Assembly (NCBI RefSeq): GCF_014648355.1
Contig: NZ_BMQY01000007.1
Coordinates: 124,001 to 188,000, forward strand
DNA: 64,000 bases
Source of the DNA: Couchioplanes azureus
Lineage (GTDB): Bacteria > Actinomycetota > Actinomycetes > Mycobacteriales > Micromonosporaceae
Direction: 5' to 3'
Position numbers and translations under genes: made by a program
Notes under the pieces: generated by a model
What the model was told of the DNA's origin: nothing
The model's input: only the letters and a program-made list of their open reading frames with translations
Databases searched by the model: none
In this document: piece after piece, positions 53,350 through 58,179 of the stretch
How the letters are laid out: each line of letters opens with the position of its first letter
How positions within the stretch are numbered: the stretch's first letter is position 1

Positions 53350-54828
53350 ATGACGGCGCCACGACTCGGCTTGGGAGTCGCTTTGACGCTTTACCTCACA
53401 CCGCGAATCGACGCGATACTGCGTTCCGTACTCGACGAGCCGGTCCTGCTCGGGGGCCTGGTCGAGGCGCTGGGGTCCCCGCTCGGCGTGGTGCTCCCCG
53501 AACGGCTCGCCGGCAACGTCGCCGCTTTTCGCGACGTCTATTCCGGGCACCGCCTCGGCGGGCAGATCTTCTTCGCGCACAAGGCGAATCAGTCCAGCGC
53601 CCTGATCCGGGAACTGGCCGCCGGTGACGCGGGCATCGACGTGGCGTCGCTGGCCGAGCTGCAGCACGCCCTCGGCGCCGGCTTCGCGCCGCAGCGCATC
53701 ATGGCGACTGGCCCGAAGAACCGGGAGTTCCTGTGGCTGTGCGCCCGGGCCGGGGTGACCGTGAACGCCGACTCCCTCGCCGAGCTCGCCGAGCTGGCCG
53801 CGCTCGTCACCGGTCGCGGCCTGCCGCGCGTACGGGTCATGGCCCGGTTGTCGGGCTTCGCCTCCGCCGGCACGGGCGTGGCCAGCGGCCGCAGCCGCTT
53901 CGGCGTGCCGAGCGCCGGCCTCGCCCAGGTGCTCGACCTCGTCGAGAAGCACCCGGAGGCGCTCGACCTGGTCGGCGTCGCCTTCCACCTGGACACCATC
54001 GGCCTGCCGGAGAAGGTCGTGGCGCTGGAGGGCTGCCTGGCCGCCCTGGACGAGTGCCGCCGGCGGGGTCTGCGTCCCTGGTCGGTGGACGCCGGCGGCG
54101 GGTTCGGCGTGGACTATCTCGCCGACGCCGCGCAGTGGGAGCGGTACACCTCGGAGCTCACCCGGGCGGTGCTCGGCCGGCGGCCGCCGCTGACCTGGCG
54201 CGGGCACGGCTACGGGCTGCGCAACGAGGGCGGCACCGTCCGGGGCGCGCTGGGGCTCTATCCCGCGCACCGGCCGGTCGCCGGTGCGGCATACCTCGAC
54301 CGGCTGCTGCGCGCCGCCGGGCCCTCCCACGGCCGGCCGCTGGGCGAGCTGCTGCTGGACAACATGTACGACCTGCACGTCGAGCCCGGCCGGGCGCTGC
54401 TCGACCAGTGCGGCATGGTGCTCGCGACGGTCCTGGAGGTCCGCGACGACGACGGCGACACGGTGGTGCGGCTGGACCTCAACGCCCGCGACGTCAGCCT
54501 GGAGGAGCACGGGGTGCTCATGGACCCGGTGGTGGTGCACCGCGGGAGCCGCGCCGCCGACCGGCCGGTGGACGTGTACCTGTTCGGCAATCTGTGCCTG
54601 GAGGCCGACCTGGTCACCCGGCGCCGGGTGTCCCTGCCGTCCCGGCCGCGCCCGGGTGACCTGCTCGCCTTCGTCAACACGGCCGGCTACTTCATGGACT
54701 TCAGCGCCACCCACGCGCTGCGCCAGCCGATCGGCCGCAAGGTGGCCATGTACCGCGACGGCGGCGCGTGGCGGTGGTGTCTCGACGAGCAGTACTGGCC
54801 CCTACACCCGCGTGCGGAGGCACCATGA
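53350..54828 (+). CDS. Fold-III PLP-dependent decarboxylase (DapDC-like; SbnH/Y4yA-type)
   Basis: 492 residues. The alanine-racemase-like barrel has the PLP Lys K78 in QIFFAHKANQ, a phosphate loop VDAGGGFGVDY and HVEPGRALLDQCG. The C-terminal beta domain has C416 in LFGNLCLEADLV, the place of the catalytic Cys of diaminopimelate and ornithine-type decarboxylases. The HIGSQ loop is replaced by FHLDTIG, so the substrate is unlikely to be diaminopimelate. It is longer than LysA (about 420) and resembles the Y4yA family and, more distantly, SbnH, which decarboxylates a citryl-diaminopropionate in staphyloferrin B synthesis. It is the first gene of a three-gene overlapping unit. Confidence 0.8.
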   Translation: MTAPRLGLGVALTLYLTPRIDAILRSVLDEPVLLGGLVEALGSPLGVVLPERLAGNVAAFRDVYSGHRLGGQIFFAHKANQSSALIRELAAGDAGIDVASLAELQHALGAGFAPQRIMATGPKNREFLWLCARAGVTVNADSLAELAELAALVTGRGLPRVRVMARLSGFASAGTGVASGRSRFGVPSAGLAQVLDLVEKHPEALDLVGVAFHLDTIGLPEKVVALEGCLAALDECRRRGLRPWSVDAGGGFGVDYLADAAQWERYTSELTRAVLGRRPPLTWRGHGYGLRNEGGTVRGALGLYPAHRPVAGAAYLDRLLRAAGPSHGRPLGELLLDNMYDLHVEPGRALLDQCGMVLATVLEVRDDDGDTVVRLDLNARDVSLEEHGVLMDPVVVHRGSRAADRPVDVYLFGNLCLEADLVTRRRVSLPSRPRPGDLLAFVNTAGYFMDFSATHALRQPIGRKVAMYRDGGAWRWCLDEQYWPLHPRAEAP

Positions 54829-56141
54829 GATACGACGCCATGACCGACGCGATCGGCAACACCCCGCTGGTGCGGATCGACCCGGCCGTGCACGGCCTGC
54901 GCCACATCGACCTGTACGCCAAGATGGAGCTGCTCAACCCGTTCGGCTCGGTGAAGGACCGCGCGGCCTGGACCATGGTGCGCCCGCTGATCGACCGGGC
55001 CGCCGGGCGCGGCGAGGTGGTGGAGCTGTCCAGCGGCAACACGGCCAAGGCCCTGGCGCTCATCGCCGGCCTGCACGGCCTCGGCTTCCGCAGCATCACC
55101 AACCGGATGAAGGTCCCGGAGATCAAGGATCTGCTCCTGCTGCTCGGCGCCGACATCGAGGAGCTGCCGGGCCAGGCCGAATGCCTCGACCCGACCGACA
55201 CCGACGACCCGCTGACCCGCATGCACCGCTCGCTCGCCGGGTCCGGCACCGGCCACCTGCACACCGACCAGTACTTCAACGAGCTCAACGTCGAGGCCCA
55301 CCTGCACGGCACCGGGCCCGAGATCGTCAAGGACCTCGACGGGCGCGCCCCGGACTACTTCGTCGCCTGTGTGGGCACGGCCGGCTCCTCGACCGGCGTG
55401 GCGGCGGCGCTGCGCCAGCACAACCCCGACGTGCGGGTGATCGGGCTGGTGGCGCACAAGTCCGACTTCATCCCGGGCATCCGCAACATCGACGAGGTGC
55501 ACGAGGTCGGTCTCTTCGACCCGGGCGTCTACGACGCCATCGAGACCATCACCGCCGACGACGCGATCGACGGGCTGCTCACCCTGGTACGCCGGTGCGG
55601 CACGCTCGCCGGGCCCACCGGCGGCGGCGCGTACCAGGGGACCGTACGGCACCTGCGGGCGATCGACGCACACCTCACCGAGCGCCGCACGGCGGTGTTC
55701 ATCGTCTGCGACCGCGTCGAGAGCTACCTGAGCTACCTGCGCGAGCGGCGCCCCGAGCTGTTCCGCCGGCCCGCCCGCGGGCACTCCACCCGGACGCTCA
55801 CCGACGCCGAGGTGGCCCAGGCCCCGTCGATCGGCGTCGACGAGGCCCGGACGTGGGTGGCCGAGCGGCGCGGCCTCGTGATCGACCTGCGCGGTCCCTT
55901 CGCCTACCAGGCGCTGCACATCGACGGCTCGCTCAACATCGCCGACGAGCTCTTCGCCGAGCTGCTGCGCGGCGGCCTGCCGTTCGGCCGCCGCCAGCCG
56001 GTCCTGCTGGTCTGCCCGGTGGGTGAGAAGTCCGCCCGCTACGCGGCCCTGCTCACCCGCATGGGCCATCCCGAGGCGCGGTCGCTGTCCGGCGGCATCA
56101 TCGCGTGGCGCGACGCCGGCGGCGAGCTGGTCCGGGACTGA
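54825..56141 (+). CDS. Cysteine-synthase-like PLP enzyme fused to a rhodanese domain
   Basis: 438 residues; ATG overlaps the previous stop (ATGA), with GGAGG 4 nt upstream. Residues 1-310 or so are a fold-II PLP enzyme: IGNTPLVRI, PLP Lys K44 in NPFGSVKDRA, and SSGNTAKALAL (70-80), where housekeeping CysK reads SGNTGIGLA. The GPTGGG phosphate loop is near residue 266. Residues about 340-438 are a rhodanese domain with C397 in LLVCPVGEKSARY as the persulfide-carrying Cys. SbnA, of this family, makes a diaminopropionate precursor from phosphoserine and glutamate. The fused rhodanese instead suggests sulfide or persulfide delivery to the PLP site. Confidence 0.85.
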   Translation: MRYDAMTDAIGNTPLVRIDPAVHGLRHIDLYAKMELLNPFGSVKDRAAWTMVRPLIDRAAGRGEVVELSSGNTAKALALIAGLHGLGFRSITNRMKVPEIKDLLLLLGADIEELPGQAECLDPTDTDDPLTRMHRSLAGSGTGHLHTDQYFNELNVEAHLHGTGPEIVKDLDGRAPDYFVACVGTAGSSTGVAAALRQHNPDVRVIGLVAHKSDFIPGIRNIDEVHEVGLFDPGVYDAIETITADDAIDGLLTLVRRCGTLAGPTGGGAYQGTVRHLRAIDAHLTERRTAVFIVCDRVESYLSYLRERRPELFRRPARGHSTRTLTDAEVAQAPSIGVDEARTWVAERRGLVIDLRGPFAYQALHIDGSLNIADELFAELLRGGLPFGRRQPVLLVCPVGEKSARYAALLTRMGHPEARSLSGGIIAWRDAGGELVRD

Positions 56142-56142
56142 G

Positions 56143-57336
56143 ATGGCCTTCCCCGAGCAGCTCCGGCGGTGGCAGCGCGAGCTGCGCGCGCAGTTCCCGC
56201 TGATCGTGGCGAACCCCGAGGTGGCCTATCTGGACAGCGCCGCCACCGCGCAGAAGCCGCAGGCGGTTTTGGACGCCGTCCTGAGCTACCTGACCACCGG
56301 CAACGCCAACGCGGCCCGGGGCACGTACCCGTGGGCGAACCGCACCACCGCGCGCATCGAGCAGGCCCGCGACCGGCTGCGCCGCTTCCTGGACGACCCG
56401 CTGCCGCACGGCTCCGGCGTGCACTTCGTCGGCGGCACCAGCGACGGGCTGCGCGCCGTCGCCCGCGACTGGCTGGCCCCGCAGCTGCGCGACGGCGACG
56501 AGATCATCGTGCCGTTCGCCGACCACGCGGCCAACGCCGAACCGTGGCTGGAGGCCGCGGAGCTGCTGCGCCGCCAGGGTGCCCGGATCCGGGTCACGCC
56601 GATGCCGTACGACGAGGCCCACGACTACGACGTCGAGCGGCTCGCCGCGCTCGTCAGCAACCGCACCCGGTTCATCGCGGCCACCCACGTGCACCACGTC
56701 TACGGCAACGACATGAACGTCCACCGGCTGCGCGCGGCGGCCGGTCCGGAGATCCCGATCTGCCTCGACGCCGCCCAGGGGGTCGGGCACCTGCCGCTGT
56801 CCACCGCCGAGCTGGACGTGGACTTCGTCGTCTTCTCCGGGCACAAGGCGATGGCGCTGCCCGGCATCGGGGCCGTCTGGGCCCGCAACACGCGGGGGCC
56901 GGCGTACGAGCCGGCCGGCTGGAGCGGCTCGCCGAACACCACCGGCATCATCAGCCTGGCCGCCGCGCTGGACTGGCTGGACGCCGCCGGACTGGGGCGC
57001 ATCGCCCACTGGACCACGGCGCTCGGCGCGCGGCTCACCGACGGCCTGCGGACCATGCCCAGCTACGAGGTGCTCGGCTGCCGGCAGAGCCTCGCCGCCG
57101 GCTCGGCCGTGCAGCAGCGCCAGGGCATCGTCGCCTTCCGCCACCACGCCATCGGCTCCCACGACCTGGGCTTCATCCTGGCCAGCGAGGGGATCCTGGT
57201 CCGCGCGGACGGTCACTGCCAGGGCGACGAGGGGGAGAAGACCGCGTCCGTACGGGTGAGCCTGCACGTCTACAACACCCCGGAGGAGGTGGACCGGCTG
57301 CTGGAGGTCCTGACCGGCCTGGACCGTTCGTGGTGA
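56143..57336 (+). CDS. Class V aminotransferase, SufS/cysteine-desulfurase-like
   Basis: 397 residues, starting one base after the previous stop. It opens with AYLDSAATAQKPQAVLDAV, the SufS/CsdA signature. The PLP Lys is K235 in VVFSGHKAMALPG. C359 in VRADGHCQGDEG lies where SufS carries its catalytic Cys (RxGxHC), so desulfuration of cysteine is possible. The loop THVHHVYGNDMNV differs from the usual HVSN segment, and no SufE, SufU or Fe-S scaffold gene is nearby, so housekeeping Fe-S assembly is unlikely. With the upstream rhodanese fusion, a dedicated sulfur relay is the simplest reading. Aminotransferase or epimerase activity remains an alternative. Confidence 0.82.
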   Translation: MAFPEQLRRWQRELRAQFPLIVANPEVAYLDSAATAQKPQAVLDAVLSYLTTGNANAARGTYPWANRTTARIEQARDRLRRFLDDPLPHGSGVHFVGGTSDGLRAVARDWLAPQLRDGDEIIVPFADHAANAEPWLEAAELLRRQGARIRVTPMPYDEAHDYDVERLAALVSNRTRFIAATHVHHVYGNDMNVHRLRAAAGPEIPICLDAAQGVGHLPLSTAELDVDFVVFSGHKAMALPGIGAVWARNTRGPAYEPAGWSGSPNTTGIISLAAALDWLDAAGLGRIAHWTTALGARLTDGLRTMPSYEVLGCRQSLAAGSAVQQRQGIVAFRHHAIGSHDLGFILASEGILVRADGHCQGDEGEKTASVRVSLHVYNTPEEVDRLLEVLTGLDRSW

Positions 57337-57362
57337 CCCGAGCGAGTCGGACACCGCCGAGG

Positions 57363-57377
57363 CCGACAATGGTTATC
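57363..57377. promoter_or_regulatory. Zur-like box upstream of the methyltransferase
   Basis: CGACAAT-G-GTTATCA matches about 10 of 15 positions of the actinobacterial Zur box (TGAAAAT-G-ATTTTCA), including GA-AAT-G-TT-TCA. It overlaps a -10-like TATCAT (57373-57378) and lies 43 bp before the methyltransferase ATG. The symmetry is imperfect, so the assignment is tentative. Confidence 0.4.
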
Positions 57378-57420
57378 ATGTGCGGGTCCGTGCCACCGCC
57401 GTACCCGGAGACCCCCCGCC

Positions 57421-58179
57421 ATGGCCACCACCGCCGGCGCGCTGAGCGCCACACCCGGCGCGGAGCGCCCGCGCGACACCTGGGACGACGTGATGGCCGG
57501 CTTCGTGCCCGGACTGGCCACCCTGGAACAGGCGATCCACGACGCCGCCCAGGCGCTGCGCCCGGACGGCCCCCGCCGCGTCCTCGACCTCGGCGGCGGC
57601 CCGGGCGTCCTCGCCGCCCGCATGGCGCGGCGCTGGCCGTCGGCCGCCGTCACCCTGCTGGACCTCGACCCGGTACTGCTCGCCCTGGCCCGGGCCGCGG
57701 GGCCGCGCGGGGTCGCCGTGGTCGACGCCGACCTCACCTCGCCGGCGTGGACCACCCGGGCCGGCGGCGCCCACGACCTGATCACCGTGGTCATGACCAT
57801 GCACTACCTGAATCCCCGCGAGGCCCGCGCCCTCTACGCCGACGCGCTGCGCTGCCTGGCGCCCGGCGGCCTCCTCGTCGTCGCCGACCTCATGCCCGAC
57901 GACGGCGCCCCGACGCTGATGCGCGCGCTGGACCCCGGCGCCGGGGAGGCGGCCGCGGAGCTGGCCTGGGCCCAGTGGTGGGACGACGCGGCGCGGATGC
58001 CGGAGCTGCGGCAGCCGATGCGCGCCCGGGCGGACCTCTTCGGCAAGCGGACCCCGGCCGAGTTCACCGCCGGCGTCTCCTGGCACGCCGAGGCGGCCCG
58101 CACGGCAGGCTTCGCCGAGGCCGGCCTGTTGTGGCGCTGCGGCCGGCACGCCGCCCTCGCCGCCCTCGCTCCCGCCTGA
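57421..58179 (+). CDS. Class I SAM-dependent methyltransferase
   Basis: 252 residues. Motif I is RVLDLGGGPGVLAARMA (about residues 52-68), with the acidic residue of strand b2 in VTLLDLDP and motif IV at LITVVMTMHYL. The lid region PREARALYADALRCLAPGGLLVVADLMPDDG is typical of O- or N-methyltransferases of small natural products. The acceptor is unknown. It lies 84 bp after the SufS-like gene in the same direction and has its own Zur-like promoter box. It may therefore belong to the same pathway or respond to zinc on its own. Confidence 0.85.
   Translation: MATTAGALSATPGAERPRDTWDDVMAGFVPGLATLEQAIHDAAQALRPDGPRRVLDLGGGPGVLAARMARRWPSAAVTLLDLDPVLLALARAAGPRGVAVVDADLTSPAWTTRAGGAHDLITVVMTMHYLNPREARALYADALRCLAPGGLLVVADLMPDDGAPTLMRALDPGAGEAAAELAWAQWWDDAARMPELRQPMRARADLFGKRTPAEFTAGVSWHAEAARTAGFAEAGLLWRCGRHAALAALAPA

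Follow-up and report, generated by a model that had tools for sequence, protein, structure and literature searches.

A conserved actinomycete gene cassette with a pyridoxal-phosphate enzyme–rhodanese fusion and a Zur-boxed methyltransferase is a candidate source of a small zinc ligand

The window analysed here, a 64-kb stretch of the Couchioplanes azureus genome, contains a compact cassette of four genes (Table 1) that has counterparts in many soil actinomycetes and may direct the synthesis of a small zinc ligand. Three encode enzymes dependent on pyridoxal 5'-phosphate (PLP), which we refer to as the trio: a fold-III decarboxylase (P0001), a fusion of a beta-replacement enzyme to a rhodanese (P0002) and a SufS-like enzyme (P0003). 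The fourth encodes a methyltransferase dependent on S-adenosylmethionine (SAM), P0004. The places and domains that a preliminary description of this DNA had assigned to them were confirmed, with all four genes on the same strand and Pfam placing Orn_Arg_deC_N and Orn_DAP_Arg_deC in P0001, PALP (residues 7-296) followed by Rhodanese (342-430) in P0002, Aminotran_5 in P0003 and Methyltransf_25 in P0004. Record annotations name the P0001 family Y4yA, following NCBI usage. The first two genes overlap by four bases, and the gap between the second and third is a single base. The start of P0001 is uncertain, as the matches of its relatives begin at residues 4-16 and a simple gene caller chooses the downstream start. 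The methyltransferase gene does stand behind a Zur-like box, as had been described, with the sequence AGGCCGACAATGGTTATCATGTG.

Table 1. Genes and features of the cassette, in window coordinates.
Feature	Position	Strand	Remarks
P0001, Y4yA-type fold-III PLP decarboxylase	53350..54828	+	Start possibly 53383; K78 and C416 conserved
P0002, CysM-like PLP beta-replacement enzyme–rhodanese fusion	54825..56141	+	K44, Y150, R220 and C397 in 103/103 loci
Rhodanese domain of P0002 (residues 342-430)	55848..56114	+	Loop C397-P-V-G-E-K-S; cysteine codon 56013-56015
P0003, SufS-like group-II cysteine desulfurase homologue	56143..57336	+	H128, D209, Q212, K235, C359 and R371 in 102/102 loci
Zur box before the methyltransferase	57360..57382 (core 57364-57378)	.	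Called by matrix score
P0004, small-molecule SAM methyltransferase	57421..58179	+	Model closest to BelI/CysG

We compared 103 loci, namely the window, 20 stretches from other genomes, two Streptomyces replicons and 80 genus-named loci. All were located through the fusion gene, and as three pairs share an identical fusion protein they amount to 100 distinct loci; the genus-named loci are the best 80 of 577 relatives, a figure that includes ordinary family members and is not a count of fusions. The six residues named in the preliminary description are invariant wherever they can be read: K78 (98/98) and C416 (101/101) of the decarboxylase, K44 and C397 of the fusion, and K235 and C359 of the SufS-like enzyme, and neither C359 nor C397, on whose conservation that description had staked its reading, is lost among the homologues. 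The remaining SufS-like residues in Table 1 are equally constant, and every locus has C-P-x-G-x-x-S as its rhodanese loop.

Gene order is conserved to a similar degree. The decarboxylase gene lies upstream of the fusion in all 103 loci and the SufS-like gene downstream in 101; the exceptions are L115, whose contig stops soon after the fusion, and the rearranged L051, where the SufS-like gene is upstream of its trio partners with one gene between. The four-base overlap of the decarboxylase and fusion genes recurs in 97 of the 103 loci and the median gap between the fusion and SufS-like genes is two bases (n = 101). Because these overlaps and short gaps are kept in relatives, the trio is probably a single transcription unit. 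The methyltransferase gene follows the SufS-like gene directly, on the same strand, in 84 of 99 distinct loci; besides ABC-transporter ATPases, no further family is present in over one quarter of the loci.

The distribution of the cassette is patchy. Using E-values of up to 1e-60 for the fusion and up to 1e-40 for the methyltransferase, we found the fusion in 27 of 60 related genomes, these being the window's own, 25 of 35 congeneric genomes and one of 24 from other families. As a check on co-occurrence, the decarboxylase is confined to the same 27 genomes and the SufS-like enzyme to those 27 and one more (G030), whereas the methyltransferase occurs in 20, every one of them trio-bearing. A sample of the phylum yielded the fusion in 5 of 396 genomes, including the window's own, and the carriers among the best 80 loci belong to Micromonospora, Actinoplanes/Paractinoplanes/Amorphoplanes, Streptomyces, Kitasatospora and Streptoalloteichus. 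The full set is missing from 10 of the 35 congeneric genomes, one of which is G030. There (L189:9200-10526), the SufS-like gene is intact at the same site and between the same neighbours, and the fusion and methyltransferase persist as short remnants only, so that the locus is, by its sequence, the relic of a lost cassette. Divergent copies are found in two genomes of another family, G055 (L051) and G292 (L141), where the fusion is 46-47% identical, the SufS-like gene comes first and an extra protein of an unclassified family is inserted (L141:12063-13232, L051:5022-6047). In L141 this protein ends in a heavy-metal-associated domain (Pfam), possibly a second link to metal.

The evidence for zinc comes chiefly from the methyltransferase. 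Our 23-base Zur matrix was built from 42 boxes that precede genes in znuA, cobW, L31, L28 and Fur/Zur clusters, preselected for agreement with typed Zur consensus strings at 11 or more of 15 positions; the methyltransferase was left out, and the seeds include one cluster (cluster 8) that holds ZnuA proteins plus others, such as L058:3603-4526, which has no Pfam family. With a box called at 12 bits or more, one precedes 83 of 89 methyltransferase-family genes, compared with 18 of 717 control genes, the controls being all genes present in at most two loci; an earlier control of 600 random genes gave 11 at this threshold. The six methyltransferase-family genes without a box are mostly short gene calls; the others are the second paralogue of L038 and a copy that has been relocated in L130. 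Boxes precede 17 of 100 decarboxylase genes, 1 of 100 fusion genes and 2 of 99 SufS-like genes. The window box scores 16.5 bits and is the sole match of at least 10 bits in the 64 kb, and the matrix scan found no box before the trio itself. The Zur-like box of the preliminary description is therefore real and conserved, and it belongs mainly to the methyltransferase rather than to the trio. From these sequence patterns the methyltransferase is predicted to be the zinc-controlled member of the cassette, with the trio linked to zinc mainly through it.

Excerpts of a study of Streptomyces coelicolor (PMC5472717) give the motif tGaNNatSatNNtCa, which the window core CGACAATGGTTATCA fits with two departures, both at weak (lower-case) positions. 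The pattern YGANAAYSRTTNTCR, which was composed to include the window box, has a single site in the 7.6-Mb genome. A looser pattern has 174 forward sites compared with 28 for its reversed control, and loose matching therefore does not single out the window box. The organism's own znuA operon (G000:C10, L151:5220-8547), which contains ArsR-family and Fur-family genes, is preceded by a box of 29.9 bits. In 42 of the 100 distinct loci, as a raw count, the cassette has a further zinc-starvation gene no more than about 10 kb away; these neighbours encode CobW, L31, L28, S14, L33, S18, a His-rich protein, Fur/Zur and an ABC-3 permease, and their families were verified, the His-rich protein by composition only. 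This small protein, which has HDGH-type repeats and no Pfam family, occurs near the trio in Streptomyces (L037:10116-10343, L081:13529-13828 and 11 other loci) and is perhaps a zinc binder. In L190 (9334-16170), the methyltransferase gene stands apart from the trio, before a znuA-C-B-B operon that is accompanied by an ArsR-like gene, and two cobW-cluster genes are nearby; Zur boxes there precede the methyltransferase, znuA and a cobW gene.

The nearest characterised counterpart to the architecture of P0002, in which a PLP fold-II domain is followed by a rhodanese-like domain, is the aspergillomarasmine A (AMA) synthase. The best two-domain match to our structural model is AMA synthetase 8h4q (Z 30.7, 417 aligned residues, 24% identity). 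According to excerpts of a published account (PMC12751119), 8h4q was solved with O-phosphoserine (OPS), the AMA synthase (8h4h, 8h4q) makes a product of a metal-chelating family, and both it and Fda4 of Fusarium poae, CysK-like PLP enzymes with a rhodanese-like domain, form C-N bonds. These enzymes differ from P0002 in being fungal and, for 8h4q, in sharing only about 24% of its residues. SbnA, which acts in staphyloferrin B biosynthesis, has the same PLP fold II and a tyrosine at Y152, the position of Y150 in P0002, but lacks the rhodanese domain, and P0002 scores 132.2 bits against the SbnA model (TIGR03945), below its cut-off of 349.95. Reading Y150 as an SbnA signature was dropped: because the CysM homologue of this genome also has a tyrosine there, the residue does not separate C-N from C-S chemistry. 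We know of no desulfurase or decarboxylase linked to AMA synthase or Fda4.

P0003 shares with SufS its fold family, residues aligned to the SufS lysine, cysteine and arginine, and presumably the catalytic histidine, and it has the conserved PLP lysine (K235) and persulfide cysteine (C359) expected of that family. It differs in its score against the SufS model (TIGR01979), which at 250.5 bits is about half the cut-off of 475.1, in an altered loop, RADGHCQGD, and in occurring, among the 60 related genomes, only alongside the fusion with the one relic excepted. The model of P0004 (mean predicted local distance difference test score, pLDDT, 92.5) is structurally closest to the methyltransferases BelI and CysG (Z 23.7), yet the sequences are only 23-26% identical. 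BelI and CysG act on belactosin and cystargolide substrates.

Relatives of the decarboxylase point towards chelator-type pathways. Streptomyces scabiei has two nearly full-length P0001 matches, one of them its own trio copy (62% identical) and the other (36%, or 32% by BLAST) at 596946-598277, within nine genes spanning 11.0 kb, a stretch whose bounds we chose. It carries ABC transporter genes, an arginine-hydroxylase-like oxygenase, SbnB-like and SbnA-like genes and a MATE exporter. Excerpts of a report on the S. scabiei cluster for ethylenediaminesuccinic acid hydroxyarginine (EDHA) give it as 11 kb, scab_5231-scab_5311 (PMC8914351), and from the agreement in size, gene number and position the nine-gene stretch is apparently that cluster. 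The S. scabiei trio itself was ruled out as the EDHA cluster, with about 9 Mb between them. We also opened five neighbourhoods from 68 plasmid records containing relatives of about 30% identity. In four, a cysteine-synthase- or SbnA-type gene is accompanied by an ornithine cyclodeaminase, an opine dehydrogenase or an FAD/NAD(P)-binding protein. An exporter of the MATE or MFS type is present in three of the four, iron ABC transporters in one and an IucA/IucC gene in one. The remaining neighbourhood comes from a Tsukamurella plasmid, where a PLP enzyme is encoded nearby and no gene of the other types is annotated. The cassette thus resembles EDHA and other Y4yA/SbnA/SbnB-type cassettes in having a homologous fold-III decarboxylase beside a cysteine-synthase-like enzyme; those cassettes differ in possessing SbnB/ornithine cyclodeaminase or opine dehydrogenase genes and often an exporter, and no rhodanese or desulfurase was seen in the neighbourhoods opened. 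Of the combination that marks pathways for EDHA and ethylenediamine disuccinate (EDDS), an SbnA-like enzyme, a decarboxylase of this family and an SbnB-like or other N-linking enzyme together, the decarboxylase is present here, while P0002 falls below the SbnA cut-off and no SbnB-like gene recurs beside the trio in the loci compared or is identified by Pfam among the ten flanking genes of the window.

Taking together the genes, their domain order and residues, the Zur box of the methyltransferase, the zinc-gene neighbours and the homology of the decarboxylase, we infer a cassette for a small zinc ligand, secreted as a zincophore or kept within the cell, related to aminopolycarboxylate chelators such as aspergillomarasmine, EDDS and EDHA; we would give this an even chance. 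P0002 would form an aminoacrylate on K44, probably from OPS, and add a nucleophile to it, yielding an N- or S-(2-amino-2-carboxyethyl) adduct, which P0001 would decarboxylate to a 2-aminoethyl (ethylenediamine-type) unit. P0003 would load sulfane sulfur from cysteine on C359 and transfer it to the rhodanese cysteine, C397. Low zinc would be expected to induce P0004 via Zur, and this enzyme would methylate the product, possibly on a carboxylate; the outcome would be a compact zinc ligand of the aminopolycarboxylate kind. P0002 may form either a C-N bond, like its characterised relatives, or a C-S bond, and since both chemistries stay alive we hold the general proposal at no greater confidence. 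Its link to zinc is well supported, while the chemistry is only suggested.

Several observations weigh against this zinc-ligand proposal. The PLP domain of P0002 scores higher against the CysM model (156.7 bits) than against that of SbnA, and the sequence of P0002 is nearer to CysM structures (141 bits) than to 8h4q (96), or 116.6 compared with 78.9. Because of this nearness to CysM, the domain order it shares with AMA synthase may have been reached by independent fusion, arising twice. The two-domain superposition on 8h4q has a root-mean-square deviation of 18.9, CysM and SbnA score within 2 Z units, and the P0002 model is of moderate quality (mean pLDDT 77). In the loci examined the trio has no conserved neighbour of the SbnB, opine dehydrogenase, synthetase or dedicated-exporter type, nor did Pfam identify any among the ten flanking genes of the window. 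Only 17 of 100 trios have a Zur box of their own, and as the link to zinc runs mainly via the methyltransferase, the trio may be expressed in response to another signal. Finally, a C-N pathway leaves the conserved C359 and C397 without a job.

This last point gives weight to a sulfur relay, in which sulfur drawn from cysteine by P0003 would travel on C397 and be added, at K44, to an aminoacrylate formed from a substrate other than plain OPS, with decarboxylation and methylation then giving a thia metal ligand. The absolute conservation of both cysteines (C359 in 102 of 102 loci, C397 in 103 of 103) and the tight linkage of the SufS-like and fusion genes, which are co-clustered wherever the contig allows with one relic excepted, suggest that sulfur matters in the cassette and that its transfer is real. 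The loop C-P-x-G-x-x-S is intact even in the divergent copies of the two genomes of another family, and CysM-type enzymes can accept sulfur from protein carriers. From OPS, however, such a relay would merely remake cysteine, and the two assayed enzymes with the same kinds of domain use amino-acid nitrogen, as excerpted in PMC12751119. We regard the relay as a tentative and rather unlikely alternative. The preliminary description had proposed a candidate metallophore or sulfur-amino-acid pathway, with sulfur passing from cysteine via C359 and C397 to an aminoacrylate intermediate: its metallophore direction gains from the Zur boxes, the zinc-starvation neighbours and the decarboxylase relatives in chelator- and siderophore-type cassettes, whereas its sulfur chemistry is weakened by these same two objections.

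More doubtful is a zinc-sparing backup, by which P0003 and the rhodanese would, under zinc shortage, replace a zinc-dependent sulfur carrier and feed iron-sulfur (Fe-S) or cysteine metabolism. SufU, for one, is a zinc protein. Zur regulons do contain zinc-free paralogues, according to excerpts of a review (PMC6103462), and ribosomal examples adjoin the trio in some loci, such as L037. This explanation leaves both the decarboxylase and the methyltransferase unaccounted for, most trios lack a Zur box of their own, and the absence of the full set from 10 of 35 congeneric genomes also speaks against it. We consider it improbable. That the genes serve ordinary cysteine synthesis or Suf-type Fe-S assembly, as their family resemblance to CysM and SufS might suggest, is very improbable and was set aside, as the preliminary description had anticipated: P0002 and P0003 score far under the curated cut-offs (for CysM, NF008735, 156.7 bits compared with 413; for SufS as given above), the genome has a better CysM match elsewhere (284.7 bits across 298 residues) and another, 33%-identical SufS-like gene, and the cassette is patchily distributed. 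Ordinary explanations thus fit poorly. Cyanide detoxification by a CysK-like enzyme and a rhodanese was also considered and was dropped without a test.

To our knowledge, actinomycetes have few known routes to zinc metallophores. Excerpts of the review cited above mention coelibactin, EDDS and a set of metallophore genes in Mycobacterium avium (PMC6103462), and among the matches listed in the open-licence PMC literature we found no description of the trio. More boldly, and as a conjecture that we think has a limited chance of being right, the cassette could represent a class of zinc metallophore that is widespread among actinomycetes and has yet to be described. Such a compound would be the sulfur-carrying equivalent of EDDS and aspergillomarasmine, made by a bacterial PLP-rhodanese synthase charged in cis with sulfane sulfur from a dedicated desulfurase, an EDHA-type decarboxylase and a Zur-controlled methyltransferase. 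A compact conserved unit of this kind in Actinoplanes-type genera, Micromonospora, Kitasatospora and many Streptomyces could add a class of chelators related to EDDS and aspergillomarasmine, and would also reveal the function of a rhodanese joined to a beta-replacement enzyme.

The ten flanking genes of the window, among them a kinase, a response regulator, a KaiC-like ATPase, SelO, a hydrolase and a TetR gene, have no metal or siderophore function by Pfam. A family resembling GNAT acetyltransferases (by Pfam, in one member) lies near the trio on either side in L089 (7855-8406), L118 (7784-8344) and 14 other loci. In a Streptomyces group, a conserved element, GGCGTAAA, lies upstream of the trio in 26 of 103 loci (for example L081, L090 and L114) compared with 0 of 732 controls. 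In most of these, a TATAC- or TTAAC-like site follows some 22-23 bases later; the Streptomyces loci concerned are in many cases close relatives of one another, and the element is possibly an alternative-sigma or regulator site.

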